Assembly: GCF_041381155.1 (NCBI RefSeq)
Contig: NC_091147.1
Span: 14,842,318 to 14,906,317, forward strand
Length of the DNA stretch: 64,000 bases
Reading direction: 5' to 3'
DNA from: Argopecten irradians
Lineage: Eukaryota > Mollusca > Bivalvia > Pectinida > Pectinidae
Shown in pieces: positions 923-30,892 of this stretch (position 1 is its first letter; each line of letters opens with the position of its first letter). Under the pieces are notes generated by a model. It saw only the letters and a program-made list of their open reading frames with translations. It ran no database searches and was not told the DNA's origin. The translations under genes and the position numbers were made by a program.

Positions 923-3900
923 CTGAAAATGTTCAAATAATATATGTCTTATGTTACTTTTATGGGAAAATATATATGGAATCATTATGGAGCTATGGAA
1001 ATATCTTTCTTAACTCCAACAGTGATAAATAATTAAGCTCTTATTACTGACGTTTAATTTTTTCAAAAAGAAGTTCATAATGAAAATCAACAGAACAGCC
1101 GTGAATGAAATATCTATACGATATTTCTAACTATTCTTATCTAAATATCACATTATCATATCTTTGTTCGAATGGATCAATTGTCTCGCGAAGTCTAGAG
1201 GAAGGGAAATGAGGACTCCTTAAAAAAATGTCTTCATATCCATTGTAATGTTTTAGATTAATCAGACAGGCTAACAAAATAAGAGATCAGCTCAATAAAG
1301 ACATACATTGAGGATACACGGACGACAGACATACTTACCATCCGCTGCTGTGGTAAGGATGATAGAGACCGGATCACTCTGATGCTCCACTGTCTGGGCG
1401 GTGACGTCAAATGTATAGTTAGCGAATGGTCTCAAACCAGTAATAGTTATCGATGTGCGGTTGGTCGACAAGTTCTTAAAATAAAGAGTTGATTATGTCA
1501 TTTATGAAATTAATCTTTTATGCAGTTTGATTTGCTACCATTTATTCGCTTTGAAAAGCCATATTGGCTGGCGAAATGCTGGTAAACGTTCTTATGAAAT
1601 GGACGTTTTATGAAAAATATTGAAAATAATGAATTATTTTCTCGGTTTCCCCAAGCTTTATAATGCCTTAATGTTATTCTGGTTATTGAATACAAACACG
1701 CCAAAGAAACCAAATCCCAAAATAATAAATTGCGTAGTTTCTTTAATTTTTATTAATACAACGCGACTAGCGGTTGTATTAATGCTATCCGGTTTACTAT
1801 TGATGTGTAAGACTGAGTAGGACTTGCCCTACAATGACATCTAGTGGTGACCTCTTGAACCATTTCATTCATAAACTTCCATTCATAAATTCCCTATTCA
1901 TTGAATAATATTCCTTTGGACCAATCAGTAGTCATGGGAAGACTGCCTACTGATTGGTAGAATAAACAGAGTGTGTATAGAATACACAGAGTGTGTATAG
2001 AGTGTGTATAGAATACACAAAGTGTTATATAATACACAGCCCATCTAGGTCAACTGTTGCTTGCTGGTGACTCCTCTGTCCAACTTACATAATCTCTGTT
2101 AATGATAACTTACTATCTAAGGCTTATAGACATAAGAGTTTTAAAGTAAACTAATCATATGCCCTTTTTGTGTACTTTAAAATAATGTTTTTAAATGAAT
2201 GTTAAACACAGATCTGAGGTAAAGGCAGAATAATGTATAAGGCTGCCCTCATATGTGCATGGTTTTACCAAAATAGGTGTATGTGCAACATAAGAAACAA
2301 GAGTATATTAAGGATAAAAACTCATTTTAATGAAGACTTTTGTTTTCTTTGTAATTTTCATGTAGGAACTTTAATGAAGAAAAATGTCAAACAAAACATG
2401 TATTTTCTGTGATCAGTTGAATGTTCTTGAAATAATTGATATCAAAGTCTTTATAATATGGTTTATATATTTTGATTTTGGAAATTCATTTGATTTCATT
2501 TTATTTTTCTGTTTCTGTTGCGTTGTATTTGCAGTACTTTGAGTACTTTGATTTTTATCGATTTCAAAACACATTGAGTGTAAAAAATCGAAATCTCCCA
2601 TTAATTTTTGGGCAAAAAAATAGAAAAGAGTTGGGATGACATCTTCCGATATCATAGATATGGACATGCTAGTTTATATACCTGATGCATTGTGTTGTTA
2701 CATGAGGTGCTCCATGGTACGACATGGACCTTATAGACAACAGTATGACAAAGCGTGTGATTCCATTGTAGTGTCACCTCTGTACCGGTTATCTTTCTCC
2801 CTGATAAATCGGTGATTGGCCCGGGTTTTACTGGTAAAATTCATAAAAAATTATTGTGGTTTCTAAAGATGAAAAATAATACAATTGAAATACTAAAGTT
2901 CAAACACTGTTTTGTTCAAACACTTTCTATTTAGGAAAAACTTTATTTTTCCGTAAATGAAAAATAAAACAATTGAAATACCGAAGTGTTTTTTTCAAAC
3001 ACTTTCCATACAAGAAATGCATTATTTTTTCCGTAAATGAAAAATCATATAATAATATACCAAGGTTTTTCTTTCTATAAAAGAAATGCGTTATTTTTCC
3101 GTGAATGAAAAACCATACAATTGAAATACCAAGATATTTTACAAACACTTTATGTAAAAGAAATGTATAATTTTTCATTTATAGAAAAATAAATCAATTG
3201 AAATAAAAACGGGTTTTTATTACATTTTCTGTAATAGAAATGCATTATTTGTCCATAAAAACTTTTTACCAACACTTTCTACATAAGAAATGCATTATTT
3301 TTCAGTACATGAAAACTCATACAATTGAAATACCAAGTACTATTTTCAAACACTTTATATAAAAGAAATGAATTATTTTCTCATCAATGAAAAATAATAA
3401 AAATGAAATATAATTTTTCCGAAAATGAAAAAGAAAAAAAAATGCAATAAAAAACCAAGGACGTATATGAGAAGGATAAGTCACACTGAGTTTTGGGCAA
3501 AGACAGCGCAGGCGCTTTTGTGTTTGTGCACTGACCGTGACGTTGGGCGACGACTGATTTCCTTTGATATTCGCCGCCGCAGCCTTTGATGTAGCATGGG
3601 GGTGCGAGGGTTACCGTCTTGAAATTTAATTCACTTTACATTGGCGTTTCGTTTGACTCGATAAGACAAGTATTTGTTGAGAAAAACGGTTTTTATTCCC
3701 GGTTCATAAGCGTCTCGCGTGGTGTTTAGTAGTGTAAAGAGACAGACACGAATCCTTCTCACTTATAAATCCTTGAAAAAACCAAGGTTTTTTTCAAACA
3801 CTTTCTATAAAAGAAATGCATTTTTTTCAGGAAATGTAAAATCATACAATTGAAATACCAAGTACTTTTTTCAAAGACTTTCTATAAAAGAAATGATTTT

Positions 3901-6900
3901 TTTTACATAAATGAAAAATAATACAATTGAAATACCAAGGTTTTTTACACACTTTCTCATCAACTAAAGGGTAAACATGAAAACGTTCTTCGTGTACTTT
4001 GAATCAATATGAGTTTTTCACATTAAACATGACTTGGGGTTGAAATTGCTCTTCTACCACAGATAAAAATAAATGTAATTTCCTTTTAGATATACATGTG
4101 CCAGTATTACATGCTTTTGTTTGTATAATATACTTACCAAATACTGCTGTAGAAAGAGTAGCAATGGCGCTATCCCTCCTAAAGTTATTGGTAACATTGA
4201 CCTTGAAATCATATATCTCTGAGAATAACAACCCTTGCTCATTCCAAGTGCATGTGACGGTATCCCTAATCTCTATATTTGTGTAGGACAAGCTATCTCT
4301 AGAACATCTTGACCAGTTAAATCTGGAAGAAAAGATTAACAAGTCTTAATCCATATATTTACGCAGTTTTTATTTGCTAAAAATTCTTAAGATTTATCAA
4401 TAGCGTAAAATAATATTATCACTTTGATGATCTAATGATACCTCGCAAACTTGGATGACGTTTATTTTAGCATTTTATTGTTTCACGTTGGCATTTAAGG
4501 CATGATAAATGCCAAATAAAGCACGCTTGCATTTGATAAGATGTCAGAGAGGATTGAGGTTAAAATGTAACATCCAGTGAAATTTTCAAAACTTATCTGA
4601 AAAAACATAGCATATATTTTCCATCCCCTTTACTAAAAGTGAAATACATGTACAAATTAATTCAAAAGTAATTCAACAATTATTCAAAACATTGAGAAAT
4701 ATAATTACAATATTTTAGTGTTAATCTCATACAAACACTTTTCGCGCTTGAACTTGAACTGGGACGCTAACATGTGATCGCACTGATTGCATGTTATGTA
4801 TTTTGATTACATAGTCATCTTTCCGCTAACACGATGAAGTATTTTTGATAAATTTTAATATATAAAAATAAGTATGTTTACAGTCATCTATATTAATTTT
4901 TTTAAATACAAAAACATTTAATACCCCAGATATGTTAAACATCTGAAGGCTGCCAAGGTTGGGGCCTTGGGGTCAGCCTTCAAAAATATAAACAAATGTC
5001 CCCACACAGGAGAGCTCTCATTCACCACACCATCGACACCACTTACTTACATCTAATAAATGACTCATCACATTCATACAATAAACATATGCATTAATCG
5101 CAAAATAACATAAGTTTCACTCAATATCGCATAGTCTATTTATTATTAACGGATAGATAAACAATTTAAAATTAACAACTGTACTAGAATAACAGACAAG
5201 CATATAAATGTGGTCTATATAAAAATAATCTAATGTTTCTCATCATATAAAAAGTATGTATGTATTTGCAGCAGAAAGATTTATCAATTCTGTTTAAACA
5301 TTGAAATATTTGTTGGATGTCATGTCATGTTAAAGTAAATTCCTGTATGTTGTTTTGTTTTTGGGCAATTGTTTTATGTATTGTATGCATTTTTAATAGG
5401 TATGTTTTCAATGCGGTTATGTTTAAATTTGTCTTCTTTCTTTACATAAAATTATTTTGAGTAAAGTATAATAAAGTTGATTGGAATTAAGTTTTCTATT
5501 ATTTCTATATCTGCAAAACCAAATAATACCCTCTTTATGTCTAAATTCAAAACTTAATGTGATGTATCAAAAACCCACTGTGTAATATTATCCGATATTG
5601 GCTTAACTTTTAGGCAATTGACTGAAAGGTCATTCAGCAGCACTTATCACAATACAATGTAAAAATACAAAAAGCTGTTTGGCTTTAATGGATTTAAAGA
5701 TATATCTTTTGATTTACTTAACGCTTGTGTAAACCATACATGTACGGGATGTTTTGTTTCCGTGATCAATGCTATCGTGTAGGTCATTGCGTAATGGAAC
5801 AGGAATGTATGTTTCTATGGAGCCGAGGTTGTTATCACATCTTTAGTTGAGTACATTTACATGTCACTTAAGATGCATACTGTAAACCAACTGATTTTCG
5901 CTTGAGTTTCATTTTCACGAAATATCAATTGTCGCGTGAGATTAATTTTCACGTGGGATTAATTGTCGCTTAATTTTCGCGTATTTCGCAGTTATAAAGA
6001 AATCGGGAAAATTAATCACCGCTAAAATGTTTCAAGTGCAAGTAAAGTAGAGGCATTGCAGTGTCGATCGCGAAATCAAATCGCCATGATAAAGTCATTA
6101 GTAACTGTAAACCAAGTTTCATTAGCGTGCAATTTACTTTCGCGAAATTCGTGATCCAAGTAAATTTGCGAAAGTTTCTCTGCGAATTAATATAAAAATC
6201 AGCTATATTGACAGGGATTATTATTAAATTGTTAAATCCGTGAATATCATCTTCGCGAACTTGTTTCGATATGGAAAACGCGAAATTTGATAACCACGAA
6301 AGAAATCTGGCATACAATTTTTTAAAAACGCGAAAATTAAAAACGGCTTTTGATTTTATAAAACGTAATTTTCAAACGGGTTTAATACTTTTGTGGGATC
6401 TCAAACGTTATTCGCTCACTGTTAATTCTTCACTTATTATCAACTCCTGGACATTTTTAAAGAAGTATTTTCATAATCCGAATCATCTTAAAATTTCCGG
6501 CGTCTTCCTAACTAATTACCGTGCAGTAGCTTAACATGACTCCGCCACACGGTAAAAGAGCGAAATGTAAAGCGAATTTTGCATTTGTTTGGTTTTGTAA
6601 CGTCATTTTAGACCATGATATAAATGTTCTAATATTAAAGTTAATAATAATATTTATTCAGTTTTATTTCGGGAAGGTTTTGGATGTTTAAAGTAATGTT
6701 ATAGTTGATAGTAATGGTTTTTTTCAGCTTTGTTTCGGGAAGGTAGCGGGCCTTTAAAGTAATGTTATAGTTGATAATAATTTTTTTTCAGTTTTGTTTC
6801 GGGAAGGTAGTGGGCCTTTAAAGTAATCTAGATGTTATTTCAAATTCCTCTGCGTAGGTTGTATAATATTAAATGCAGAATCGGCAGTTTTGTTCCATTA

Positions 6901-9900
6901 GTTTAGATCTGTCACGGTGCCAGACTATACCCACCTCTCATATATTAATAGCTAGATAACATTACATAACTCGTTCAATATTCCCTGATCATTTCATGAT
7001 TGTTGCCACCATTAGCAAGCTTTATTAAGAGATTTTTTTTAATTTGCATACTCATACTGCAAAATTACCATTTTTTTTCTATTATGGTGAAATAATTATG
7101 ATGTTAATCTAGATCTAGATTTGTCCTTAAGTGAGTAACGGAATATAATTTGCATATTCATACTGCAAAATTACCATTTTTTCTATTGTGTTGAAATAAT
7201 TATGATGTTAATCTAGATTTGTCCTTAAGTGAGTAACAGAATATACAACTTTTTAAGATTAATTCATATCATCAAAAGGACTTTATTTACCGGGATTTAG
7301 ATAATATCTAATTTTTGTAAAACTATAACGTTTTGTAGCAGTGGGCTAGTGTTGACGATTTTAGTAAACTTTCTGAAATAATTAATATATACTCATCGAT
7401 ATCTTCGGGATGATGTTTTCGCGATTTTGTTGCACATTAAAAATGATTTGATCCGCGAATTGTGGAGAAAAGGTTCAATATTATATACCCGTATAGCTAG
7501 ATAACAAAAATTAAAACTGCTTAAATTTAACGGTTTTTTTTATTTAAAATCGCAAAATTTTGACCCGCGTAGATTTCTGGCTATACGGTAACTATAGTAA
7601 CTATAAAGATCATATAAATGACAATAAAAAACATTTCTAGTCGAGTTATTTATACATAGGAGCAATTGTGTTGGAATTAGTCCTTCCGGACCCTAAGAAA
7701 GTAGTGTTACTCAGCATGTGATCTTTATACCGCAGGTGTACTCATACTATTTACGTATTTACGTATCGGACAAGATTTTCTGACATTCTTTCCCTAATCT
7801 GTGAATTTTTGGCCATAGTTCGAGGCCCACATGTAATAATATGTAATGGTATTATTGCGATCGATATAGTCGACATAGGTTTTTGTGAAGGAAACATTGT
7901 TCTTCCTAAAATGACCACAGTTCAGAGAAGGCAAAATGCAAGCATTTAAATATAAATGAATGTCTGAGAATTAATCTCTATTAACGATACAAGATTTTCT
8001 TTTATATCTGACATTCTAAAATTAATCGGTTAAATTTCGGCTATACTGTAGTTCGATGCCCATATGTAATGGTATGTATAATTGTGATCGATATACTCGA
8101 CATAGGCTTTTGTGAAGGAAACATTGTTCTTCTTAACATTATCGCAGATTAGAGTAGGAAAAACAAAGTTATCTCTGAAACCTCTCTTTGAATAAAAATA
8201 ACGTGTGTTAAAAATTCAGCGTGATGTTTGTTTGTTGTAGCGGCATTAAATTCTACAGCCGTGACTTCTATATCCCACGTTGGACTGGTCATAACACGAA
8301 TATAAAAACTAGTTCATTTGGATGAATGTATTCTTTTTATCTGTTAGTTAATGAGTTCATGATCCCGAGAATTCCAACTTTGGAAACAATAGTAAGGCCG
8401 AGATAAAATCTAACGACGCAACGCTGATATGTGTGATTAATATCTCGATCGCATAAAGACTGACACGCAGTCAACGTGTGTCATGTAGACCTAAATGTAT
8501 TTACTCGTTTGTTTTTGAGATCTTTTAAAGAACTTTGGTAATCCCATTCATCAAAATGTGCAAAATCAATTAAATATTTCTCTCTGAGTTCATGATAAAA
8601 TGATACACGGTCACACAACAGATTAGAACTTACTTAAGTGTTTTGCGCCGACAAAATAAACAAAGTGACTTGATTGAAAGTGGTCAACATTCTACTAAAA
8701 CATTAAACATAATGTGTCAGACATAAATTAAGTGCCTGTAGTGAATTAAACGTTAGAATCAACGTATCAAAAAATAGATTTTTCAAAAATATAATATGCA
8801 TTCCACCAACAAACACACCAAATTAATTCTTTAATAATGGATTGAAAAAGTGTACTACTTTTGATTTCAATATCATATAATACTATGTCATTTTACTCAC
8901 ATTTTCAAGAGTAATGTACATGCATTAATTGTAACGTATAGTGTCTGTATTGTAGTGTAAGGTTTAGTTTTGTCCAATGTTATTGTATTCTATATGATAT
9001 GAAAGTAAGTAAAAGAAATTGAATGTTTAAAAAATTAACTCACATTTAGTGATTATGTATCTTCATATCAATATTTATGTGTATTACTTCACCTAAATTT
9101 TCGTTTGGACCCTATACATTTCTTGATCTATGCTTATTCTTTCATTTGATTTTACTTACATGTGATGATCATGTGACCGTGTCTTCATAACGATATCTTA
9201 CTTATTCTTTCATTTAATTTTACAAACGTGTGATGATCACGTGACCGTGTCTTCATAACTATATCTATGCTTATTCTTTCATTTAATTTTACTTACGTGT
9301 GATGATCATGTGACCGTGTCTTCATAACTATATCTATGCTTATTCTTTCATTTAATTTTACAAACGTGTGATGATCACGTGACCGTGTCTTCATAACTAT
9401 ATCTATGCTTATTCTTTCATTTAATTTTACTTACGTGTGATGATCACGTGACCGTGTCTTCATAACTATATCTATGCTTATTCTTTCATTTAATTTTATA
9501 AACGTGTGATGATCATGTGACCGTGTCTTCATAGCTATATCTTACTTATTCTTTCATTTAATTTTACTCATGTATGATGATCATGTGACCGTGTCTTCAT
9601 AACGATATCTTATTTATTCTTTCATTTAATTTTACAAACGTGTGATGATCATGTGACCGTGTCTTCATAGCTATATCTATGTTTATTCTTTCATTTAATT
9701 TTACTTACGTGTGATGATCACGTGACCGTGTCTTCATAACTATATCTATGCTTATTCTTTCATTTAATTTTATAAACGTGTGATGATCATGTGACCATGT
9801 CTTCATAGCTATATCTTACTTATTCTTTCATTTAATTTTACAAACGTGTGATGATCATGTGACCGTGTCTTCATAACGATATCTTATTTATTCTTTCATT

Positions 9901-12900
9901 TAATTTTACAAACGTGTGATGATCATGTGACCGTGTCTTCATAGCTATATCTATGCTTATTCTTTCATTTAATTTTACTTACGTGTGATGATCATGTGAC
10001 CGTGTCTTCATAACTATATCTATGCTTATTCTTTCATTTAATTTTACTTACATGTGATGATCATGTGACCGTGTCTTCATAACGATATCTTACTTATTCT
10101 TTCATTTAATTTTACTTACATGTAATGATCATGTGACCGCGTCTTCATAACTACATCTATGCTTAATCTTTCATTTAATTTTACTTACATGTGATGATCA
10201 TGTGACCATGTCTTCATAACTATATCTTACTTATTCTCTCATTTAATTTTACTTACATGTGATGATTATGTGACCATGTCTTCATAACTATATCTATGCT
10301 TATTCTTTCATTTAATTTTACTTACATGTGATGATCATGTGACCGTGTCTTCATAACTATATCTATGTTTATTCTTTCATTTAATTTTACTTACATGTGA
10401 TGATCACGTGACCGTGTCTTCATAACTATATCTATGCTTATTCTTTCATTTAATTTTACTTACGTGTTATGATTATGTAACCGTGTCTTCATAACTATAT
10501 ATATATGCTTATTCTTTCATTTAATTTTACTTACGTGTGATGATCATATGACCGTGTCTTCATAACTATATCTATGCTTATTCTTTAATTTAATTTTACT
10601 TTCGTGTGATGATCACGTGACCGTGTCTTCATAACTATATCTTACTTATTCTTTCATTTAATTTTACAAACGTGTGATGATCATGTGACCGTGTCTTCAT
10701 AACTATATCTATGCTTATTCTTTCATTTAATTTTACTTACGTGTTATGATTATGTAACCGTGTCTTCATAAACTATATATATATGCTTATTCTTTCATTT
10801 AATTTTACTTACGTGTGATGATCATATGACCGTGTCTTCATAACTATATCTATGCTTATTCTTTAATTTAATTTTACTTTCGTGTGATGATCACGTGACC
10901 GTGTCTTCATAACTATATCTTACTTATTCTTTCATTTAATTTTACAAACGTGTGATGATCATGTGACCGTGTCTTCATAACTATATCTATGCTTATTCTT
11001 TCATTTAATTTTACTTAAGAGTGGTGATCATGTGACCGTGTCTTCATAACTATATCTTACTTATTCTTTCATTTAATTTTACTTACGTTTGATGATCATG
11101 TGACAGTGTCTTTATAACTATACCTATGCTAATTCTTTCATTTAATTTTACTTACGTGTGATGATTATGTGACCGCGTCTTCATAACTATATCTATGCTT
11201 ATTCTTTCATTTAATTTTACTTACGTGTGATGATCATGTGACCATGTCTTCATAGCTATATCTTACTTATTCTTTCATTTAATTTTACTTACGTGTGATG
11301 ATCATGTGACCATGTCTTCATAACTATATCTTGCTTATTCTTTCATTTAATTTTACTTACGTGTGATGATCATGTGACCGTGTCTTCATAGCTATATCTT
11401 ACTTATTCTTTCATTTAATTTTACTTACGAGTGGTGATCATGTGACCGCGTCTTCATAACTATATCTATGCTTATTCTTTCATTTAATTTTACTTACGTG
11501 TGATGATCATGTGACCATGTCTTCATAGCTATATCTTACTTATTCTTTCATTTAATTTTACTTACGTGTGATGATCATGTGACCGTGTCTTCATAACTAT
11601 ATCTTACTTATTCTTTCATTTAATTTTACTTACGAGTGGTGATCATGTGACCGCGTCTTCATAACTATATCTATGCTTATTCTTTCATTTAATTTTACTT
11701 ACGTGTGATGATCATGTGACCGTGTCTTCATAGCTATATCTTACTTATTCTTTCATTTAATTTTACTTACGTGTGATGATTATGTGACCGTGTCTTCATA
11801 GCTATATCTTACTTATTCTTTCATTTAATTTTACTTACGAGTGGTGATCATGTGACCGCGTCTTCATAACTATATCTATGCTTATTCTTTCATTTAATTT
11901 TACTTACGTGTGATGATCATGTGACCGTGTCTTCATAGCTATATCTTACTTATTCTTTCATTTAATTTTACTTACGTGTGATGATTATGTGACCGTGTCT
12001 TCATAGCTATATCTTACTTATTCTTTCATTTAATTTTACTTACGAGTGGTGATAATGTGACCGCGTCTTCATAACTATATCTATGCTTATTCTTTCATTT
12101 AATTTTACTTACGTGTGATGATCATGTGACCGTGTCTTCATAGCTATATCTTACTTATTCTTTCATTTAATTTTACTTACGAGTGGTGATCATGTGACCG
12201 TGTCTTCATAACTATATCTATGCTTATTCTTTCATTTAATTTTACTTACGTGTGATTATGTGACCGTGTCTTCATAGCTTATATCTTACTTATTCTTTCA
12301 TTTAATTTTACTTACGTGTGATGATCATGTGACCGTGTCTTCATAACTATATCTTACTGAAATTTTTTCATTTAATTTTACTTACGAGTGGTGATCATGT
12401 GACCGCGTCTTCATAACTATATCTATGCTTATTCTTTCATTTAATTTTACTTACGTGTGATGATCATGTGACCGTGTCTTCATAGCTATATCTTACTTAT
12501 TCTTTCATTTAATTTTACTTACATGTGATGATCATGTGACCATGTCTTCATAACTATATCTATGCTTATTCTTTCATTTAATTTTACTTACGTGTGATGA
12601 TCATATGACCGTGTCTTCATAGCTATATCTTACTTATTCTTTCATTTAATTTTACTTACGTGTGATGATTACCTGACCTTGTCTTCATGATTATATTTAT
12701 GCTTATTCTTTCATTTAATTTAACTTACGTTTGATTATCAGGTGAACGTCTCTTCATATCTATGTTTATGCTTATTCCATCAATTGGATTATAGCTATTA
12801 GGTCGATGACGATAAAACTGCCTTAGGCCGAAGGTACACGTGATATTCTCGCAGTTATAGATGAGACACGATACATTTTCTGCCGGTATGGGGTAATCTG

Positions 12901-15900: not shown

Positions 15901-17524
15901 GAGTGGACTGGGAGACTGCGGTATGTTCGTGTTGTGTCTTCTTGTATAGTGGAACTGTTGCCCTTTTTATAGTGCTATATCACTGAAGCATGCCGCCGAA
16001 GACACCAAGCAACACACCCCACCTGGTCACATTATACCGACAACGGGCGAACAAGTCGTCCCACTCCCTGTATGCTGAACGCTAAGCAGGAGCAGAAACT
16101 ACCACTTTTATAGACTTTGGTGTATCTCGGCCAGGGGACAGAACCCAGAGCCTTCCTCACAGGGGCGAACGCTCAACTCAAGGCCAAAAGTGAGGCGGTG
16201 CCAAGGTAGGCATTAGGAAAGATAAAGTCAGTTAGGAAGAAGAGAAAAGATAAGATCCTAAATTTAGTCGCCTTTTACGATCATGCAATAGGGGCAGCAG
16301 GTACAATTCTAACGCCCTCTGATATGATAATACCAAGCGATACCTATACTATATGTATGATGTGAGAATGGTATATGTTGCCCCATTACATGATCGTAAT
16401 CGGCGACTAAATTACAAGCAGGAAATATTTATTACTTACTGTCTACTTCCACAAGAGTCATTTTTTCCTGAAGACGATAACATGAACTCCTAAGTGCACA
16501 GATATATTGAAACGATGTTAATTTTCTATTCTCTAGAGTCACCACGTCAGAAGTAGTTTTCCGAATGATAGTAGTCGAGTTCCGCACAGCTATTGTGGTG
16601 TTGATCGGTATATTATTTTCACCCTTATAATACATCATCATATCAACGTCTGTGCCATTATCCAGCGTGTGGTTGGCGCTTGCTTGGACATCACAAGTCA
16701 TATTTAATGATTCACCTGCATACCTGAATGGACTTCGAGGTGATATTTCTGAAAATGAAATTAAAATCTTTATTAAAAAACAATGATGTCACCATTTTTT
16801 AACTTCATCGTGATCAAAGAACTTTTGTTTTGCAAACTGTGTGAATCCGCCTAACGGATTCTAACGAAATTTTGCAAACAAAATTCATTTCATAACCCGG
16901 TGAAGTTAAAAAATAGTAATATCAATGTTTATAACTAATTTTTCAGACTACTTGATAAAATCCGTTTAAACGTACGAATCCATTGATGTTCCAATGGATT
17001 ATTATTTTCTAAATTGATACGCAACATCGATGTCTCTATTATGACGTCATGATAACGTCGGGTTTTCGCCTCAAAGTTGGATTTTTCTTCATAGTTGTAT
17101 GAAGAAAAAAGAATCTGCCAATCGGAAAGTAGGATTAAGTATGAAAACAAATAGAGATTTAATATTTCCTTGAGAATATAAACACCTTTACATTGAGACT
17201 TTTTGATGACACTCATGTAGAGATGGTTCAGAAGTAATATTATTTTATAATGATTGTATATAGAGACACCCTCAATCACAGTTAATGTAGGTGAGGAGCT
17301 TATTTTCCCATTGATACATGAAATAGCATGGAAACATATTTAAGATAAACTCGCGAATAAAAAATAAAACATGTAATATAATATTGACAACTTACACAGA
17401 ATAGGATCTCAAACTTAAACTTACCCAGTTTTGGTTGAAAATCATCGTCGCAGGAACATTTTCCAAGTCGGAATTGAGATGTGAACATAAAGATGTAAAG
17501 CGGCCAGCGGCGTAGTGATACCAT
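843..17524 (-). CDS. Class I cytokine receptor-like protein (gp130/Domeless type), N-terminal 376 codons, 3' end outside window
   Basis: Seven minus-strand exons join in phase: 17425-17524, 16440-16748, 12729-12897, 4138-4322, 2682-2830, 1339-1474 and 843-922, all with GT-AG borders (mostly GTAAGT donors). Seen: start Met preceded by an in-frame TGA, a weak signal peptide (residues 1-25), an Ig-like domain (about 34-136, with MTCDV and YICAL cysteines), then PIPAENVSC..NCENITCTF and WSRC..DTVTCTW, the four-cysteine pattern of a cytokine-receptor N-terminal fibronectin III domain, followed by VKPGPITDL opening a second FN3 domain (255-349) and a third (350 on). Known: class I receptors such as gp130 and Drosophila Domeless share Ig plus cytokine-binding module plus FN3 order and signal through JAK/STAT. 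The WSxWS motif is not recognisable; EHQSDPVS stands in its place. No transmembrane segment is in the window. The exon model is my manual assembly. Alternative: another Ig/FN3 adhesion protein. Confidence 0.72.
1339..1474 (-). CDS. Receptor exon 6: second half of second FN3 domain
   Basis: Begins in phase 0 after TTTTAAG and ends in phase 1 at GATG|GTAAGT. It encodes TSITITGLRPFANYTFDVTAQT, whose L-x-P-x-x-x-Y pattern is typical of FN3 strands E-F. Where a WSxWS box would be expected it has HQSDPVS. Confidence 0.75.
1965..2037. repeat. Short tandem repeat of GTGTGTATAGAATACACA
   Basis: Two to three imperfect copies of an 18-20-bp unit that is itself nearly palindromic (TGTATAGAATACA) lie in a receptor intron. 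Confidence 0.6.
2682..2830 (-). CDS. Receptor exon 5: first half of second FN3 domain
   Basis: Starts after TTTTACCAG in phase 1 and ends in phase 0 at CATCAG|GTATAT. It encodes VKPGPITDLSG, VTLQWNH and VVYKVHV, the A-to-C' strands of a fibronectin III domain. Phase agreement with the exons on both sides supports the assignment. Confidence 0.7.
2868..3945. repeat. Intronic AT-rich minisatellite of about 75 bp
   Basis: Diverged units built on CAAACACTTTCTATAAAAGA, ATGCATTATTTTTCCGTAAA and CAATTGAAATACCAAGG recur about every 70-77 bp from 2868 to 3455 and again from 3776 to 3945, in the intron between receptor exons 4 and 5. The array is interrupted by the element at 3456-3775. Confidence 0.75.
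3456..3775. mobile_element. Short TIR element inserted in the minisatellite
   Basis: A 320-bp segment unlike the surrounding repeat. It is bounded by imperfect inverted ends (CAAGGA..TATA..TGAGAAGGAT on the left, its complement on the right) and by AAAAAAC on both sides (3449-3455, 3776-3782). It has no coding capacity. Because the host array itself contains AAAAAACCAAGG, the duplication could be coincidental. Confidence 0.5.
4138..4322 (-). CDS. Receptor exon 4: second half of cytokine-binding FN3 domain
   Basis: Starts after TTTTCTTCCAG in phase 2 (matching exon 3 across an 8.4-kb intron) and ends in phase 1 at TTTG|GTAAGT. It encodes FNWSRC, DTVTCTW, then IYDFKVNVTNNF, the F/G-strand-like end of an FN3 fold. 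The two cysteines fit the second disulfide of the N-terminal cytokine-receptor domain. Confidence 0.72.
4323..5875. other. Intronic stretch without recognised features
   Basis: AT-rich intron of the receptor gene, between exon 4 and the MITE region. I see no exon, RNA gene or clear repeat. Confidence 0.4.
5880..6300 (+). mobile_element. TTTCGCG-type MITE cluster
   Basis: Two adjoining non-coding elements rich in TTTCGCGAA-like words, each starting CTGTAAACCAA. The second (6107-6290) aligns with the reverse complement of 61135-61310: both contain GCGTGC(A/G)ATTTACTTTCGCGAA, GCGAAAGTTT, CTCTGCGAATT and CTATATTGA(C/T)AGG in the same order. The 87-codon ORF overlapping the end is not a gene. Confidence 0.65.
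6650..6830. repeat. Three tandem copies of a ~68-bp unit containing TTTCGGGAAGGTAGCGGGCC
   Basis: TTTTGTTTCGGGAAGGT followed by GGGCCTTTAAAGTAATGTTATAG recurs at about 6660, 6725 and 6795. Its complement (GGCCCACTACCTTTCC) matches the ends of the elements at 37.3, 37.7 and 55.2 kb. Confidence 0.65.
7040..7245. repeat. Two-copy tandem duplication (~105 bp)
   Basis: TTTGCATACTCATACTGCAA through GTCCTTAAGTGAGTAAC is repeated with few differences. The first copy has an extra AGATCT. Confidence 0.8.
7769..8165. repeat. Two-copy tandem duplication (~215 bp)
   Basis: Both halves contain ACAAGATTTTCT, CTGACATTCT, TAGTTCGA(G/T)GCCCA, GATCGATATA(G/C)TCGACATA and GTGAAGGAAACATTGTTCTTC in the same order. 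They are diverged, so this is an old duplication. Confidence 0.75.
10457..11010. repeat. 277-bp four-unit block duplicated inside the satellite
   Basis: The distinctive unit TACGTGTTATGATTATGTAA starts at 10461 and again at 10738. It is followed both times by the same variants (GATCATATGACC, TTACTTTCGTG, TTACAAACGTG). One extra A separates the copies, so the block was duplicated recently. Confidence 0.85.
11410..12440. repeat. Higher-order trimer (~205 bp) within the satellite
   Basis: Units cycle A-B-C: A has CGAGTGGTGATCATG, GACCGCG and ends CTATG; B has CGTGTGATGATCATG with TCATAGCTATATCTTA; C resembles B with GATTATG or AACTATATCTTA. The cycle repeats about five times with minor breaks near 12.1-12.35 kb. 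Confidence 0.75.
12729..12897 (-). CDS. Receptor exon 3: first half of cytokine-binding FN3 domain
   Basis: Starts after TTTCTTTACAG in phase 1 and ends in phase 2 at CAAAC|GTAAGT. It encodes PIPAENVSCLIYNC, ENITCTF and then a basic stretch ending SPDNQ. The spaced cysteines followed by C-x-F match the first disulfide region of class I cytokine receptors. The last ~45 bp of this exon, its donor and the next 24 intronic bases are homologous to the unit of the adjacent 67-69-bp array. Confidence 0.72.
12898..14790. other. Intron 2 of the receptor, distal part: nothing recognised
   Basis: AT-rich, no coherent ORF, exon or repeat seen. Confidence 0.4.
14795..15015 (+). mobile_element. Dispersed non-coding repeat, family copy 1
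   Basis: Shares ordered blocks (ATGGAAACATACCTG, TTTACAGTTACTAAT, AGTAAAATGTGAA, GGTTTGACCATATG, ACTGCATTGTAGACGTAAAT, GGCAGTACT, GCTCTTATTTG) with 43960-44190, 46800-47010 and the reverse complement of 63125-63355. The 79-codon ORF inside is not a gene. Confidence 0.7.
15800..16240. mobile_element. Interspersed element with SINE-like core
   Basis: Begins TTGTTTGTTTGATTTATTAA, then CGTCCTATTAACAGC and GTCATGTAAGGACGG, the same core seen in the tRNA-derived SINE at 46.5 kb, followed by AGTGCTATATCACTGAAGCA and AAGACACCAAGCA. A diverged relative lies at 48340-48550. It sits in an intron of the receptor gene. Confidence 0.6.
16440..16748 (-). CDS. Receptor exon 2: Ig-like domain
   Basis: Enters in phase 1 after TTTTCAG and leaves in phase 1 at GACA|GTAAGT. 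It encodes one complete Ig-like domain of about 103 residues: GESLNMTCDV (B-strand Cys), YYKGE, a TLENRKL stretch, and SFQYICALRSS (F-strand Tyr-x-Cys), ending LVEVD. A single symmetrical-phase (1-1) exon is the usual arrangement for an Ig domain. Several N-x-T/S sequons suggest an extracellular position. Confidence 0.72.
17425..17524 (-). CDS. Receptor exon 1: start codon and signal peptide
   Basis: Encodes 33 residues beginning MVSLRRWPLYIFMF, then a Cys-Ser-Cys and acidic stretch. The in-frame TGA three codons upstream fixes the Met as start. It ends in phase 1 at CTGG|GTAAGT. The hydrophobic core is short, so the signal peptide is plausible rather than strong. The 27-bp satellite begins about 235 bp upstream, so promoter or 5' UTR sequence must lie in that gap or beyond the array. 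Confidence 0.65.
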
Positions 17525-17756
17525 ATTGGCTCATATATCCCAGGAAAAACTTCCTCCGAGATAGCGCCTATTTAATCAAATGAAAACTTGGAAATAATTT
17601 TGCTATACAAAATTTCAAAATGAATCAAACTTAAATTTACTTATGATTTACATTCCCCTATTATTTTTTCTTCGCAATGTAAGCTATATTGTTTCACTGT
17701 TATTCTACAATCTTCCTTGACGCCGACTCTTTTTCGGCTTTTAAGGTACATCATTT

Positions 17757-20700
17757 ATTACGTTATCATTCTTATTATCATTTTCTCCGTTATAACTATA
17801 ATTATCACACTCTCCGTTATAACTTTTATTATCATTTTCTCTGTTTTTACTATAATTATCACACTCTCCGTTATAACTGTTATTATCATTTTCTCTGTTA
17901 TTACTATAATTATCACACTCTCCGTTATAACTGTTATTATCATTTTCTCTGTTATTACTATAATTATCACACTCTCCGTTATAACTGTTATTATCATTTT
18001 CTCCGTTATAACTATAATTATCACACTCTCCGTTATAACTGTTATTATCATTTTCTCTGATATTACTATAATTATCACACTCTCCGTTATAACTGTTATT
18101 ATCATTTTCTCTGTTATTACTATAATTATCACACTCTCCGTTATAACTGTTATTATCATTTCCTCCGTTATAACTATAATTATCACACTCTCCGTTATAA
18201 CTGTTATTGTCATTTTCTCTGTTATTACTATAATTATCACACTCTTCGTTATAACTGTTATTATCATTTCCTCTGTTATTACTATAATTATCACACTCTC
18301 CGTTATAACTATAATTATCACACTCTCCGTTATAACTGTTATTATCATTTTCTCTGTTATTACTATAATTACCACACTCTCCGTTATAACTGTTATCATT
18401 TTCTCCGTTATAATTATAATTACCATTATCTGTGTTTTCATTATTATTATCATTTTCTCCGTTATTATCATTATTATCATATTATCATATTCTTTGTTAG
18501 AATTATTATTACTATTTTTTCCTTGTTATTATCATTACCACACTCTCCGTTATTACTATTATTATCATTTTCTCCGCTATCATTCCTATCATCATTTTCT
18601 CTGTATTTTTTTTTATTATTTGTACTTAACTTGCCGTTATTACTATTATTATCATTTTCTCCGTTATTACTATATTATTATCACACTCTCCGTTATTACT
18701 ATTGTTATCACATCTCCGTTATTACTATTGTTATCACACTCTCCGTTATTACTATTGTTATCACACTCTCCGTTATTACTATTTTATCACACTCTCCGTT
18801 ATTACTATTGTTATCACACTCTCCGTTATTTACTATTGTTATACACCACTCTCCGTTATTACTATTTTATCCACTCCCGTTATTACTATATTGTTATCAC
18901 ACTCTCCGTTATTACTATTGTTATCACACTCTCCGTTATTACTATTGTTATCACACTCTCCGTTATTACTATTGTTATCACACTCTCCGTTATTACTATT
19001 ATTATCACACTCTCCGTTATTACTATTGTTATCACACTCTCCGTTATTACTATATTGTTATCACACTCTCCGTTATTACTATTGTTATCACACTCTCCGT
19101 TATACTATTGTTATCACACTCTCCGTTATTACTATTGTTATCACACTCTCCGTTATTACTATTGTTATCACACTCTCCGTTATTACTATTATTATCACAC
19201 TCTCCGTTATTACTATTGTTATCACACTCTCCGTTATTATATTATTATCACACTCTCCGTTATTACTATTGTTATCACACTCTCCGTTATTACTATTGTT
19301 ATCACACTCTCCGTTATTACTATTGTTATCACACTCTCCGTTATTACTATTATTATCACACTCTCCGTTATTACTATATTATTATCACACTCTCCGTTAT
19401 TACTATTGTTATCACACTCTCCGTTATTACTATTGTTATCACACTCTCCGTTATTACTATTGTTATCACACTCTCCGTTATTACTATTGTTATCACACTC
19501 TCCGTTATTACTATTGTTATCACACTCTCCGTTATTACTATTGTTATCACACTCTCCGTTATTACTATTGTTATCACACTCTCCGTTATTACTATTGTTA
19601 TCACACTCTCCGTTATTACTATTGTTATCACACTCTCCGTTATTACTATATTATTATCACACTCTCCGTTATTACTATTGTTATCACACTCTCCGTTATT
19701 ACTATTGTTATCACACTCTCCGTTATTACTATTGTTATCACACTCTCCGTTATTACTATTATTATCACACTCTCCGTTATTACTATATTATATCACACTC
19801 TCCGTTATTACTATTGTTATCACACTCTCCGTTATTACTATTGTTATCACACTCTCCGTTATTACTATTGTTATCACACTCTCCGTTATTACTATTATTA
19901 TCACACTCTCCGTTATTACTATTGTTATCACACTCTCCGTTATTACTATTGTTATCACACTCTCCGTTATTACTATATTATTATCACACTCTCCGTTATT
20001 ACTATTGTTATCACACTCTCCGTTATTACTATTGTTATCACACTCTCCGTTATTACTATTGTTATCACACTCTCCGTTATTACTATTATTATTACACACT
20101 CTCCGTTATTACTATTGTTATCACACTCTCCGTTATTACTATTGTTATCACACTCTCCGTTATTACTATTGTTATCACCACACTCTCCGTTATTACTATT
20201 GTTATCACACTCTCCGTTATTACTATTGTTATCACACTCTCCGTTATTACTATTGTTATCACACTCTCCGTTATTACTACCCGTATTATTGTTATCACAC
20301 TCTCCGTTATTACTATTGTTATCACACTCTCCGTTATTACTATTGTTATCACACTCTCCGTTATTACTATTGTTATCACACTCTCCGTTATTACTATGTT
20401 ATCACACTCTCCGTTATTACTATTGTTATCACACTCTCCGTTATTACTATTGTTATCACACTCCACTATTTTATCTCTCCGTTATTACTATTGTTATCAC
20501 ACTCTCCGTTATTACTATTGTTATCACACTCTCCGTTATTACTATTGTTATCACACTCTCCGTTATTACTATTGTTATCACACTCTCCGTTATTACTATT
20601 ATTATCACACTCTCCGTTATTACTATTGTTATCACACTCTCCGTTATTACTATTTTATCACACTCCGTTATACTATTGTTATCACACTCTCCGTTATTAC

Positions 20701-23700
20701 TATTGTTATACTCTCCGTTATTACATTGTTATCACACTCTCCGTTATTACTATTTTATCACACTCTCCGTTATTATATACGTATATTGTTATCACACTCT
20801 CCGTTATTACTATTGTTATCACACTCTCCGTTATTACTATTGTTATCACACTCTCCGTTATTACTATTGTTATCACACTCTCCGTTATTACTATTGTTAT
20901 CACACTCTCCGTTATTACTATTGTTATCACACTCTCCGTTATTACTATTGTTATCACACTCTCCGTTATTACTATTGTTATCACACTCTCCGTTATTACT
21001 ATTGTTATCACACACTCTCCGTTATTACTATTGTTATCACACTCTCCGTTATTACTATTGTTATTTCACACTCTCCGTTATTACTATTGTTATCACACTC
21101 TCCGTTATTACTATTTTAACACCTCCGTTATTACTATTGTTATCACACTCTCCGTTATTACTATTGTTATCACACTCTCCGTTATTACTATTGTTATCAC
21201 ACTCTCCGTTATTACTATTGTTATCACACTCTCCGTTATTACTATTGTTATCACACTCTCCGTTATTACTATTGTTATCACACTCTCCGTTATTACTATT
21301 GTTATCACACTCTCCGTTATTACTATTGTTATCACACTCTCCGTTATTACTATTGTTATCACACTCTCCGTTATTACTATATTATTATCACACTCTCCGT
21401 TATTACTATTGTTATCACACTCTCCGTTATTACTATTGTTATCACACTCTCCGTTATTACTATTGTTATCACACTCTCCGTTATTACTATTGTTATCACA
21501 CTCTCCGTTATTACTATTGTTATCACACTCTCCGTTATTACTATTATTTATCACACACTCTCCGTTATTACTATTGTTATCACACTCTCCGTTATTACTA
21601 TTGTTATCACACTCTCCGTTATTACTATTGTTATCACACTCTCCGTTATTACTATTGTTATCACACTCTCCGTTATTACTATTGTTATCACACTCTCCGT
21701 TATTACTATATTATTATCACACTCTCCGTTATTACTATATTATTATCACACTCTCCGTTATTACTATTGTTATCACACTCTCCGTTATTACTATTGTTAT
21801 CACACTCTCCGTTATTACTATTGTTATCACACACTCTCCGTTATTACTATTGTTATCACACTCTCCGTTATTACTATTGTTATCACACTCTCCGTTATTA
21901 CTATTGTTATCACACTCTCCGTTATTACTATTGTTATCACACTCTCCGTTATTACTATTGTTATCACACTCTCCGTTATTACTATTGTTATCACACTCTC
22001 CGTTATTACTATTGTTATCACACTCTCCGTTATTACTATTGTTATCACACTCTCCGTTATTACTATTGTTATCACACTCTCCGTTATTACTATATTATTA
22101 TCACACTCTCCGTTATTACTATTGTTATCACACTCTCCGTTATTACTATTGTTATCACACTCTCCGTTATTACTATTGTTATCACACTCTCCGTTATTAC
22201 TATTGTTATCACACTCTCCGTTATTACTATTGTTATCACACTCTCCGTTATTACTATTGTTATCACACTCTCCGTTATTACTATTGTTATCACACTCTCC
22301 GTTATTACTATTGTTATCACACTCTCCGTTATTACTATTGTTATCACACTCTCCGTTATTACTATTGTTATCACACCTCTCCGTTATTACTATTGTTATC
22401 ACACTCTCCGTTATTACTATTGTTATCACACTCTCCGTTATTACTATTGTTATCACACTCTCCGTTATTACTATTGTTATCACACTCTCCGTTATTACTA
22501 TTGTTATCACACTCTCCGTTATTACTATTGTTATCACACTCTCCGTTATTACTATTGTTATCACACTCTCGTTATTACTATTGTTATCACACTCTCCGTT
22601 ATTACTATTGTTATCACACTCTCCGTTATTACTATTGTTTATCACACTCTCCGTTATTACTATTGTTATCACACTCTCCGTTATTACTATTGTTATCACA
22701 CTCTCCGTTATTACTATTGTTATCACACTCTCCGTTATTACTATTGTTATCACACTCTCCGTTATTACTATTTTATCACACTCTCCGTTATTACTATTGT
22801 TATCACACTCTCCGTTATTACTATTGTTATCACACTCTCCGTTATTACTATTGTTATCACACTCTCCGTTATTACTATTGTTTATCACACTCTCCGTTAT
22901 TACTATATTATTATCACACTCTCCGTTATTACTATTGTTATCACACTCTCCGTTATTACTATTATTATCACACTCTCCGTTATTACTATTGTTATCACAC
23001 TCTCCGTTATTACTATTGTTATCACACTCTCCGTTATTACTATTATTATCACACTCTCCGTTATTACTATTGTTATCACACTCTCCGTTATTACTATTGT
23101 TATCACACTCTCTGTTATTACTATTATTATCACACTCTCCGTTATTACTATAATTATCACACTCTCCGTTATTACTATTATTATCACACTCTCCGTTATT
23201 ACTATTGTTATCACACTCTCCGTTATTACTATTGTTATCACACTCTCCGTTATTACTATATTGTTATCACACTCTCCGTTATTACTATTGTTATCACACT
23301 CTCCGTTATTACTATTGTTATCACACTCTCCGTTATTACTATTGTTATCACACTCTCCGTTATTACTATTGTTATCACACTCTCCGTTATTACTATTATT
23401 ATCACACTCTCCGTTATTACTATTGTTATCACACTCTCCGTTATTACTATTATTATCACACTCTCCGTTATTACTATTGTTATCACACTCTCCGTTATTA
23501 CTATTGTTATCACACTCTCCGTTATTACTATTGTTATCACACTCTCGTTATTACGTTATTATATTATTATTATCACACTCTCCGTTATTACTATTTTATC
23601 ACACTCTCCGTTATTACTATTGTTATCACACTCTCCGTTATTACTATTGTTATCACACTCTCCGTTATTACTATTGTTATCACACTCTCCGTTATTACTA

Positions 23701-25455
23701 TTGTTATCACACTCTCCGTTATTACTATTGTTATCACACTCTCCGTTATTACTATTGTTATCACACTCTCCGTTATTACTATTGTTATCACACTCTCGTT
23801 ATTACGTTATATTATTACTATTGTTATCACACTCTCCGTTATTACTATTGTTATCACACTCTCCGTTATTACTATTGTTATCACACTCTCCGTTATTACT
23901 ATTGTTATCACACTCTCCGTTATTACTATTGTTATCACACTCTCCGTTATTACTATTGTTATCACACTCTCCGTTATTACTATTGTTATCACACTCTCCG
24001 TTATTACTATTGTTATCACACTCTCCGTTATTACTATTGTTATCACACTCTCCGTTATTACTATTGTTATCACACTCTCCGTTATTACTATTGTTATCAC
24101 ACTCTCCGTTATTACTATTGTTATCACACTCTCCGTTATTACTATTGTTATCACACTCTCCGTTATTACTATTGTTATCACACTCTCCGTTATTACTATT
24201 GTTATCACACTCTCCGTTATTACTATTGTTATCACACTCTCCGTTATTACTATTGTTATCACACTCTCCGTTATTACTATTGTTATCACACTTTCCGTTA
24301 TTACTATTGTTATCACACTCTCCGTTATTACTATTTTATCACACTCTCCGTTATTACTATTGTTATCACACTCTCCGTTATTACTATATTATTATCACAC
24401 TCTCCGTTATTACTATTGTTATCACACTCTCCGTTATTACTATTGTTATCACACTCTCCGTTATTACTATTGTTATCACACTCTCCGTTATTACTATTGT
24501 TATCACACTCTCCGTTATTACTATTGTTATCACACTCTCCGTTATTACTATTGTTATCACACTCTCCGTTATTACTATTGTTATCACACTCTCGTTATTA
24601 CTATTGTTATCACACTCTCCGTTATTACTATTGTTATCACACTCTCCGTTATTACTATTATTATCACACTCTCCGTTATTACTATTGTTATCACACTTTC
24701 CGTTATTACTATTGTTATCACACTCTCCGTTATTACTATTGTTATCACACTTTCCGTTATTACTATTATTATCACACTCTCCGTTATTACTATTATTATC
24801 ACACTCTCCGTTATTACTATTGTTATCACACTCTCCGTTATTACTATTATTATCACACTCTCCGTTATTACTATTGTTATCACACTCTCCGTTATTACTA
24901 TTGTTATCACACTCTCCGTTATTACTATTATTATCACATTCTCCGTTATTACTATTGTTATCACACTCTCCGTTATTACTATTGTTATCACACTCTCCGT
25001 TATTACTATTGTTATCACACTCTCCGTTATTACTATTGTTATCACACTCTTCGTTATTACTATTGTTATCACACTCTCCGTTATTACTATTGTTATCACA
25101 CTCTCCGTTATTACTATTGTTATCACACTCTCCGTTATTACTATTGTTATCACACTCTCCGTTATTACTATTGTTATCACACTCTCCGTTAATACTATTG
25201 TTATCATTTTCTCTGTTATTTTTATTATTATCATTTTCTCTGCTATTACTACTATCACACACTTCGTTATTACTTTTATTATCATTTTCTCCGTTATTAT
25301 TATAATTGTCATTTTCTCCGTTATTACTATTATAATCACACTCTCCGTTATTACTATTATAATCACACTCTCCGTTATTACTATTATTATCATTTTCTTC
25401 GTTTTTCTTTTTATTTTCAATTTCTTCTTTTTTACTATGATTATCATTTTCTCGG
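17757..25455. repeat. 7.7-kb satellite of a 27-bp unit (~285 copies)
   Basis: The core unit is CACTCTCCGTTATTACTATT plus GTTATCA. From 17.76 to 18.37 kb two variants alternate (54-bp dimers). From 18.66 to 25.2 kb the unit is almost homogenised, with scattered 1-4-bp indels, and the last 250 bp are again divergent (TCATTTTCTC variants). Minus strand of each unit: TGATAA (GATA-type) and TAACGG (MYB-type). The unit has no stop codon in any plus frame or in two minus frames, so spurious ORFs up to 2,491 codons arise. Indels at this density may partly be assembly error. Confidence 0.97.
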
Positions 25456-28155
25456 TTGTAATTAAATTTTGATCATATTGATATGGTAAAGGATTTATCG
25501 ACCGAACGATTTAAAAAAAAAGGTTTTAGAAAAAGAATATTTTCGATTTCATAACATAAGTTTTGTAAACCAACTTATTCGCGCCGACTTATATTCGTTT
25601 TAAAGGTTCTTATAAGATAATTTGAAAATTGTCGTTAAACTGTGATTAACCTAATCACCTTTTGAACAACTGGCGCCAGTTGAAAAGAAAGTAAAAGAAG
25701 TGGTCTAACATATTTCTGTAAATCTATTGTCTATTTTGTACCCGTTATAGTTTTTTTTAAACCATTATTCTTTTTAAACAAAGGGGTTAAAACTTAAGTT
25801 ATGACAGACTATGATACCGTAGAAAGAACAATTACAAGTATTTATGATAAAATTTACAACGGTTTCGAAAACGAATATGTTTTATCACATCTAACATACA
25901 TGTACCACATGTGCATTACTACTACTGTTAGACAAAACAATAATCCGTTCAGTAAAGCAAATAATTTTCATATAATGAAGTCAGCACGGGATGACAATAA
26001 AAGCTCAGAAACTACCACGACATTGACGTGCACCTAAACTCTTGTCTAATTTACTTCCTCAATTCTCTCGTGTTGTTATGAAAGTATAAACTTTGACAGA
26101 AACTTGACTTACCTTTTTTAACTTGTTAATCGGTCGGGCCACCGTGTACACCTATGACTGTTCAGAGCTTCACGACGCTAATTTCGACATGCATGGTAGG
26201 GTACAAGTCACAATAACAATGGAACGAACGGCTCGAGCATTGTCTAATAAATAGTTATCTTACAATTGACATATTCTGTAACACTACTACTAAAATACAC
26301 AAAAGCTTTAGTTAAATAAAACAAATATTTATAAAAAATTGAGCTTGTGACAACCCCACAAAAATGATTATTTTATATTTTTTGTTCTGAAAAAAAATCT
26401 AATTTTAATGAATTTGCATTTTGATATATATTTTAAGCTGTATCTACTTATGAACCAGTATTTTTGACAATAATTGTGACCGAGGTAGATTTAAAATTAA
26501 CACGGACATATTACAGACTTAAATACCTGTTGTTTTGTTTTATAGACAGGTAGGGAATTACACAATGGTCATACACAATCACTGTATCTCGAATAACTGA
26601 AAATTTCCACACATACTAGCGTACTTTTCTATATATGCTTAATAATTTCCTTATGGACAGTCAAGGGAAATAAGGGTGGAATTCCCATATGAATGTAGAT
26701 AATAAAACCTGATATCTATAAAGAATTTTTAACATATTGTTTTAAATATTTTAAATTCCTATGTAAATAACATAAGAAGTATGCCAAAAGGCATCCCTCA
26801 CTTGACATTAATGCTTTCATGAAATACCAGTAAAGCCGGTTCTTTTCGCGGGGATGGTATTTTCCCGATCTCGCGGGTCTTTGCTATGATCACGAAAAAT
26901 TGATTCGCGATATATTAACAAAATAGTTGATTGGCATCTACCTTTAAAATCCATATCGGGAAAATTGAAAATCGCTTATATATTATTTTCTCGTTTTTAG
27001 ATCAAAGTGCGAAAATTTTGTACAGTATACGGTTTTTGATAGTGGTATGAATAAGAAAATAATCGGACAATAAGAAAGTGCTTGAAAACAAAGAAAAAAT
27101 AATGATTATATCACGAAACAAAAATTAAGGAAACAGCTATTTGATTGCCAAAACACGTGTTCTCTGAAAGCCTCGATCGTGATGACATGAATATCTTCTC
27201 TAACCTCTTTAACAGTACCAAGTTTACAGTGTTTCCTGATACTTCGGGATCCCCCTTTACACTACTTCCGTTTTGGTCCATATCCAAGTCCTATTGTGTT
27301 ATAGTTGGATCAAGCCAACTACTTTTCAGAGTGAAAAAAAAAATATTATTAAAACAATTATAACATCAGAACGTCGATGACAAAAGATGGAGTTACAACA
27401 CTAGTAAATGCAAAATTGCGTGGTGTGTAAGTTTTATTTCGCTGTTTTGCTACGTGGTCTAGTGATCGCGAACTCCCGTAAGATTACCAGGACAACATCT
27501 CAAATAAAATTGGTGTTAATTAGTTGCTTATAAAACATTCTAATAGGAAGGCGGATGTGGGTTTTTTTTATTTGGGGGGGGTATTCTTTCTTATATTTCT
27601 CTTTTTTTTTGTACGGATCACTATGGCCGGGTGGTTAATATGTCCCGAAATATTACCACAAGCCCTCTACCTCTGGGTAACGAGTCCCAGGCATGTGGAG
27701 CAGTTAACTAACCGTCGTTCGGTAGTTTTTCTCCGGTCACTCAGGCTTTCCTCCACCGACAACCTGGGTCTAGCTATTAGATGTTAAACTAGTAGTAAAC
27801 TAATCAAAACAAAACAAAAATCTTCTCTAGAGTTTTAAACACATTTTAGCTTTTTCAATATTTCTCTTCCGAAATCTTTTATCAAAGTAGACGATAATAT
27901 CTGCAGGCGTAGTACTAGAGTTACATCTAATCTTTTAGTAGGACAAAACTCGAGAAGAAATATAAGAAGTGGGCCTAGATAACGTAGCTGGTGGAATGGC
28001 TCGGGTAGTTACGAAACCATAACAATATATAATGTTTCGTGCGGTTATCGGCACATACTGAAGATATTCGATATATTTCCATTGTGTTAGTTAAAGCCTT
28101 TGTATGACACGCGAAGAACAAAGCAGACATTTTTTTAAGGATTGTAGTGCGATGA
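25456..28155. other. Intergenic region, mostly unrecognised
   Basis: AT-rich spacer between the satellite and the 28-35 kb element. A 78-codon ORF at 25801-26037 has no recognisable domain and is not supported as a gene. TTTCGCG-type MITE sequence lies at about 26840-27025, and sequence related to the 37.3-kb element (GGAGTTACAACAC, TTTCGCTGTTTTGC) at 27385-27470. Confidence 0.45.
27625..27790 (+). mobile_element. tRNA-derived SINE fragment
   Basis: GGCCGGGTGGTTAATATGTC followed by CTCTGGGTAACGAGTCCCAG and GGCTTTCCTCCACCGACAAC matches, in order, the SINE read on the minus strand at 46.5 kb. The internal promoter boxes are mutated and no 3' core is clear. Confidence 0.6.
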
Positions 28156-30465: not shown

Positions 30466-30892
30466 ACTTTCAGCTGTCGTTGTTCATGCGTGTTGATACG
30501 AGTTGTCCCCCCTTTCCCAATAGCTTTATTATGCGAAGACTGTCATTTCAATTCAGACAACAATATTTTTTAAATAGCCTTTCATAAATTGAATTTCTTG
30601 CAAGTTTATGCTTTTCAGTTATTATATATTATTTAGTTTTGATTCTTTTGGAGTCTGTTATAGTATTCTTGGAGCAACTGTATAGCAATATTTAGTAAAT
30701 CAATATAAGCTTATCTATTATTGACTATATTACAAAATACTTTTAAACTGTGTAAAAAAAAAAAAAAAAAAATAGTTGCTTTCTTTAATAATGTACCGCT
30801 TCTCAGGGCCTTGCTTCGGCATATACGCCATATTCTGCTTCGGTAGAGGTGTAAACCCAGAGCTGCTTGTACTATATATGAAGTTAGTAGAT

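Follow-up and report, generated by a model that had tools for sequence, protein, structure and literature searches.

The window analysed here, the whole stretch of 64,000 nucleotides from Argopecten irradians (contig NC_091147.1, positions 14,842,318 to 14,906,317), contains a long tandem array in an intron of a predicted receptor gene. Judged from the DNA, the repeat unit is the last ~50 bp of exon 3, its splice donor, and ~16 bp of intron of a gp130-like receptor gene on the minus strand. The name mirages was given in amphioxus Adh3 to tandem repeats that cross exon-intron borders; such repeats also occur in the amphioxus globins BflGb6 and BflGb9 (PMC3087553) and in TnC and PGBD5 (PMC3902484). 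We consider it quite probable that the array is a mirage-type minisatellite built from the exon 3 border of the receptor gene, and that the splice decoys within it are drifting rather than being maintained.

The exon 3 border and its intronic array

The end of exon 3 and the unit consensus align without gaps across the exon-intron border, with 61 of 73 columns identical and 12 mismatches. This alignment scored 86, whereas 300 base-order shuffles reached no more than 34. The homologous sequences have the same orientation and are directly adjacent, in agreement with a first, sequence-only reading of the window. That reading had divided the unit into about 45 bp of exon and 24 bp of intron, which was close, although our measurement gave 57 exon columns and 16 intron columns.

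Tandem Repeats Finder (TRF) reported one array on the minus strand at 9126-12777, with a period of 69, 53.2 copies, and 91% matches, and also returned it at periods of 137 and 205. We divided the array into the exon-end copy, 52 full intronic units running from 12712 to 9144, and a partial unit from 9143. Four units have odd lengths of 66, 70, 71, and 72 bp, and the rest are 68 or 69 bp long. The units form higher-order repeats: among the proximal 24, units three apart differ least (lag 3; 3.95 differences), and among the distal 28, units four apart do (lag 4; 4.38 differences). Beyond the distal edge lies a degenerate copy of the exon-end unit, whose alignment score of 35 was reached in none of 500 shuffles (maximum 32).

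The donor hexamer GTAAGT is kept in 39 of the 52 intronic units, exactly the number previously counted by hand. It occurs 40 times on the minus strand of 9127-12777 when the true donor is counted, and 53 times on the minus strand of the entire window, which leaves 13 occurrences outside the array. Most 68-bp units carry a second donor-like site, GTAAGA, which went unmentioned in the sequence-only reading; it is found 21 times in the array, where GTAAG in any context occurs 61 times. Among the 13 lost donors, seven read GTTTGT, two GAAAGT, two GTTTAT, one TTAAGT, and one ATGAGT. All 13 losses are in the distal 28 units, and GTAAGT is intact in all 24 proximal units. The losses span 11070-10588 and 9966-9212, and because several of them recur along with the higher-order repeats, the number of independent mutations behind them may be smaller. 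With regard to pseudo-exons, no acceptor with a good pyrimidine tract was found in the array, where the best YAG sites are preceded by 6 pyrimidines out of 15.

The gene that holds the array has five predicted AG/GT-flanked exons (Table 1), which join into one open conceptual frame of 315 amino acids, the last four having phases 1-2, 2-1, 1-0, and 0-1. This phase pattern is typical of class I cytokine receptors. Exon 3 lies between TTTTCTTTACAG and GTAAGTTAA, and its predicted product (YPIPAENVSCLIYNCENITCTF...RRSPDNQ) makes up the N-terminal half of the first cytokine-receptor-like domain. The conceptual protein matches fn3 at E=2.3e-11 in residues 225-307, the part encoded by exons 5 and 6. 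Exon 3 alone had no Pfam match, and its best match in PDB, a weak one, was IL-31 receptor alpha (IL-31RA, E=0.21). The splice structure of gp130 is largely conserved among class I receptors (Liongue and Ward, PMC1963337). We refer to the gene as gp130-like; individual E-values are weak, and shared exon structure carries the case for this probable assignment.

A genome search with exon 3 led to C6, where an exon is 39% identical to it across 33 residues (E=0.64). The C6 gene has five corresponding exons in one open frame, with phases identical to those of the window gene. Alignment of the first domains of the two genes scored 58, compared with a mean of 8.7 in 500 shuffles (standard deviation 4.9, maximum 27), and the C6 first domain matches IL13RA2 (E=0.011) and gp130 (E=0.03). 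At the C6 counterpart of the exon 3 border, the exon end is different and the intron, of ~500 bp, has no array. For both the window gene and the C6 paralog, no Pfam family was above cut-off for the first domain, and the WSXWS motif was absent, by inspection, from the translated second domain. Other matches to exon 3, on C2 and C15 (L013-L016), were weak (E of 1.1 to 3.3) and were not accepted as paralogs, those on C15 being repetitive frames.

A tblastn search with exons 2-6 did not find further 3' exons of the window gene in L009-L010. Upstream of its immunoglobulin (Ig)-like exon, a 7.7-kb array with a 27-bp unit occupies 17750-25457; it is strongly C/T-skewed on the plus strand and open over long stretches in several frames.

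Table 1. Positions of the receptor exons, the exon 3 border array, and the border arrays of the C6 paralog (window coordinates unless a locus is named)
Feature	Position	Strand	Description
Upstream exon	16440..16748	-	Ig-like by inspection only; ends in phase 1
Exon 3	12729..12897	-	169 bp; enters after phase 1, leaves in phase 2
Stretch matching the unit: end of exon, donor, and start of intron	12713..12785	-	57 bp exon, 16 bp intron
True 5' splice site GTAAGT	12723..12728	-	TAA stop at 12727-12725 met by any read-through
Intronic array	9127..12712	-	52 full units, mostly 68/69 bp, and a partial unit
Degenerate copy of exon-end unit	9057..9091	-	Beyond distal array edge; score 35
Exon 4	4138..4322	-	Second half of first domain; phase 2 to 1
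Exon 5	2682..2830	-	First half of FNIII domain; phase 1 to 0
Exon 6	1339..1474	-	Second half of FNIII domain; phase 0 to 1
C6 array (a)	L017 4700-4859 (C6:10899699-10899858)		Ig-like exon end and donor; 83 bp, 1.9 copies
C6 array (b)	L017 7407-7654 (C6:10902406-10902653)		Acceptor type; 64 bp, 3.9 copies
C6 array (c)	L018 754-1097 (C6:10905753-10906096)		Donor type; 45 bp, 7.7 copies; before hydrophobic, putative transmembrane exon

Probable origin of the array and its likely effect on splicing

Amplification of the exon-intron border into the intron appears the most likely origin of the array, because the unit was found only at this locus and exon 3 fits an open five-exon frame with a same-phase counterpart in the paralog. 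Across the 846-Mb genome, all 48 matches to the unit (three mismatches or fewer) were in the array, and the unit pattern read backwards gave no matches. A genome search with 141 bases returned only the array locus among the matches listed, and the unit sequence matched no second contig in the assembly (one allele, one assembly). The C6 exon has the same phases but a different end and no array, and therefore the exon most likely predates the array. The sequence-only reading had left two directions side by side, slippage at an exon-intron border or recruitment of the exon end from a pre-existing satellite. Array and exon end are homologous under recruitment as well, a likeness that by itself has no direction, but a satellite would have to be placed in a genome with no unit match elsewhere and next to an exon whose paralogous counterpart, in the same phase, ends differently and lacks the array. 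We consider recruitment very improbable, and of the two proposals it is the amplified border that finds support.

Under border amplification, tandem duplication of sequence spanning the boundary between exon 3 and intron 3 would have put a copy of the exon end and donor into the intron, and unequal exchange would then have expanded this copy to ~52 units with higher-order repeats. The first intronic unit has the exon-specific A at column 17, a base found there in none of the other 51 units, as would be expected of a unit at the edge of the array.

We infer that splicing normally proceeds from the first, true donor, that the array is likely spliced out as part of the intron, and that leakage into truncated forms is small. 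U1 could bind many of the intact decoys. By a simple and crude energy measure of pairing with the U1 5' end, intact decoys reach -7.1 to -7.3 kcal/mol and the true donor -5.7 kcal/mol. Exon length limits donor choice, and exon definition would keep real competition to the first few units, where the first extended exons would measure 238, 306, 375, and 443 nt. Any leakage would give an mRNA whose reading frame ends immediately at the TAA; such an mRNA may be a target for decay or encode a truncated receptor.

This stop also bears on the earlier suggestion that the array encodes in-frame extended isoforms of the receptor. Because the true donor, in phase 2, reads AC-G TAA, all 39 extended isoforms stop there, after residue 159 of the conceptual protein and at least 65 nt before their own junction. 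This excludes in-frame extension of exon 3 through donors downstream of 12728 in the present frame. A change of GTAAGT to GTTTGT leaves some 69-bp units without a stop in the frame of the exon (open reading frame 9430-9296), but the exon-like part of the unit shows no coding bias, with 9 synonymous and 22 non-synonymous variants distributed over codon positions as 13/7/11. We give a coding role of this array next to no credence.

The proposal that the donors form a bank of kept decoys also found no backing. Diversity in the donor hexamer was 0.138, compared with a unit mean of 0.081, and 60 of 67 six-column windows of the unit were less variable than the hexamer, which argues against selection keeping the decoys. 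Together with the lack of coding bias in the exon-like part, this pattern is consistent with decoys that are by-products of the array's origin and are drifting away.

A related possibility is that the array acts as a splicing rheostat, in which the abundance of equivalent donors would reduce productive splicing, and the length of the array would determine how much full-length receptor is made or favor skipping of the following exon. The slightly stronger pairing of the 39 intact decoys with U1 and the intact donors of all 24 proximal units are consistent with such a role, and since every extended form carries a premature stop, decoy use would lower output. There is also a parallel in human ABCA7, where the length of a donor-carrying variable number tandem repeat (VNTR) is associated with reduced expression and increased skipping of exon 19 (PMC5954066). 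However, unit retention in ABCA7 was independent of VNTR size (PMC5954066), amphioxus mirages left regular splicing undisturbed (PMC3087553), and the variability of the hexamer relative to the rest of the unit gives no sign of selection for decoys. On balance we find a rheostat unlikely.

Several observations weigh against our reading of the array as an amplified border with drifting decoys. Counted over its whole length, the first intronic unit differs from the exon-end copy about as much as the others do (13 differences, compared with 9-15 for other units), and the direction of duplication is argued from the paralog and from uniqueness, not from an outgroup ortholog. Given their slightly stronger U1 pairing, the decoys may be heavily used. 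Additionally, the intact donors of the 24 proximal units would also fit retention near the exon, although we favor recent homogenization.

Border arrays in the paralogous receptor gene and their generality

The C6 paralog bears three further exon-border arrays identified by TRF (Table 1), so that the two receptor genes together hold four. In array (a), the donor of the second copy is degraded. In array (b), the true exon start (L017 7619) lies in the last copy, and AG is kept in two of the three upstream copies. Array (c) has seven identical AAG/GTGAGTTA sites, including the true donor, with U1 pairing of -10.7 kcal/mol in the same simple measure. Its regular unit corresponds to 15 codons with no stop, and each step adds GELSPLYTTVQHPIK. 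Five of the six extended isoforms are in frame; the sixth, which crosses a 43-bp unit, shifts the frame and changes residues. Array (c) could add in-frame 15-residue repeats near the membrane, and the idea of in-frame isoforms appears to fit the C6 paralog better than the window gene.

Across the five in-frame intronic units of array (c) (units 2-6), all four variable sites are synonymous at codon position 3, compared with an expectation of 25%. Calculated by hand, this has a probability of ~0.004 if sites are independent and 0.016 if two neighboring changes are counted as one event; we note that these are few sites, chosen after the fact. When the exon-end unit is included, there are 12 variable sites, eight synonymous and four not, and these four are in the first seven bases of the exon-end unit, before the TRF-bounded array.

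As a tentative proposal, which we regard as possible but doubtful, receptor genes of this family may, in this genome, repeatedly grow border minisatellites, some of which turn coding. Array (c) would then be a ladder of identical strong donors that adds 15-residue juxtamembrane stalk repeats one by one, with selection on the protein maintaining it. In that case, the window array would be an untranslated member, its decoys only lowering receptor output.

We surveyed arrays in 314 kb (the window, L009, L010, and L017-L039), a sample that includes receptor loci we had chosen. There was no excess of donor arrays in this sample: GTRAGT occurred in 6 of 85 arrays with units of at least 20 bp, compared with 5.9 in shuffles, and 113 of 200 shuffles reached 6. 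An acceptor-like string was present in 15 of the 85, compared with 13.2 in shuffles. In the two receptor regions, 4 of 12 hand-listed arrays straddle known exon borders where 1.6 were expected (P=0.043), a weak and post hoc result. We also compared ten borders of the window gene with the gene region by BLAST, and copies of this kind turned up for the exon 3 donor alone; the acceptor of exon 5 matches seven upstream places, over 20-22 bp of intron sequence only.

Some other features of the window and genome were also noted. Matches to fn3 run with nearly equal scores at C1:62.65-62.70 Mb (part of them spaced ~0.92 kb) and C9:11.07-11.15 Mb (part ~3.2 kb), possibly as tandemly amplified exons. 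Within the window, open reading frames at 29866-34182, presumably DIRS-like, include a reverse-transcriptase-like frame at 32788-34182. Those at 52471-53289 and 61946-62770, which we take to be sulfotransferase-like, look alike and are perhaps a tandem gene duplication.

Relation to known systems and significance

The window array shares several features with mirages. The unit spans a predicted exon-intron boundary, the authentic boundary would lie at the array edge with the other copies in the intron, and many but not all donors are kept. Inside the array, units have evolved in concert (lags 3 and 4), and the exon copy, first unit, and distal copy have diverged. The arrays differ in size, with 52 units here compared with 6 and 3 in two amphioxus BflGb6 haplotypes (PMC3087553).

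Human genes offer further comparisons. The ABCA7 intron 18 VNTR likewise has a donor-containing unit directly at the exon border, and use of the next unit's donor leads to a premature stop, but its 25-bp unit starts at GT and contains no exon sequence (PMC5954066). The 68/69-bp unit of the window array includes ~50 bp of exon, and the array is known from one allele, compared with ABCA7 alleles of 298-10678 bp. In IFI6 (6-16, G1P3), minisatellite units serve as splice donors in transcripts (Turri et al. 1995, as described in PMC4526556); donor use has been shown in that gene, whereas the donors here are predicted from the sequence. The 31-bp VNTR of CBS, c.1444_1467+7, has a unit that, by its designation, takes in 24 bp from the end of an exon together with 7 bp of intron, and it is present in 16-21 copies; compared with the window array, its unit is shorter, and it is polymorphic in people (PMC2630376). 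In human duplicated genes, variable internal tandem repeats at exon-intron boundaries may cause novel introns; these repeats average four 30-bp units, and half of those detected are in coding sequence (PMC2812944).

From its structure, the array is thus known in kind, as the same type has already been described in amphioxus and human genes. The earlier statement that no case of this form had been described is overtaken by the amphioxus mirages (PMC3087553, PMC3902484), the ABCA7 intron 18 VNTR (PMC5954066), and IFI6 (PMC4526556). What is new here is the C6 paralog with its three additional exon-border arrays, one of which could add in-frame 15-residue repeats. In a small search of open-licence literature, which cannot exclude such a report, neither this locus nor any coding donor array resembling array (c) was found described.

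The window array amounts to a natural competition assay, in which the true exon is followed by a row of 39 intact 5' splice sites, all preceded by nearly identical copies of one ~50-bp exon sequence. Since every wrong choice of donor meets the same stop codon, the assay has a built-in readout. The C6 paralog combines donor, acceptor, and in-frame donor types in one gene. Together, these arrays bear on how splicing depends on where duplicated sites lie, how many there are, and how strong they are, and on whether such arrays become protein repeats.

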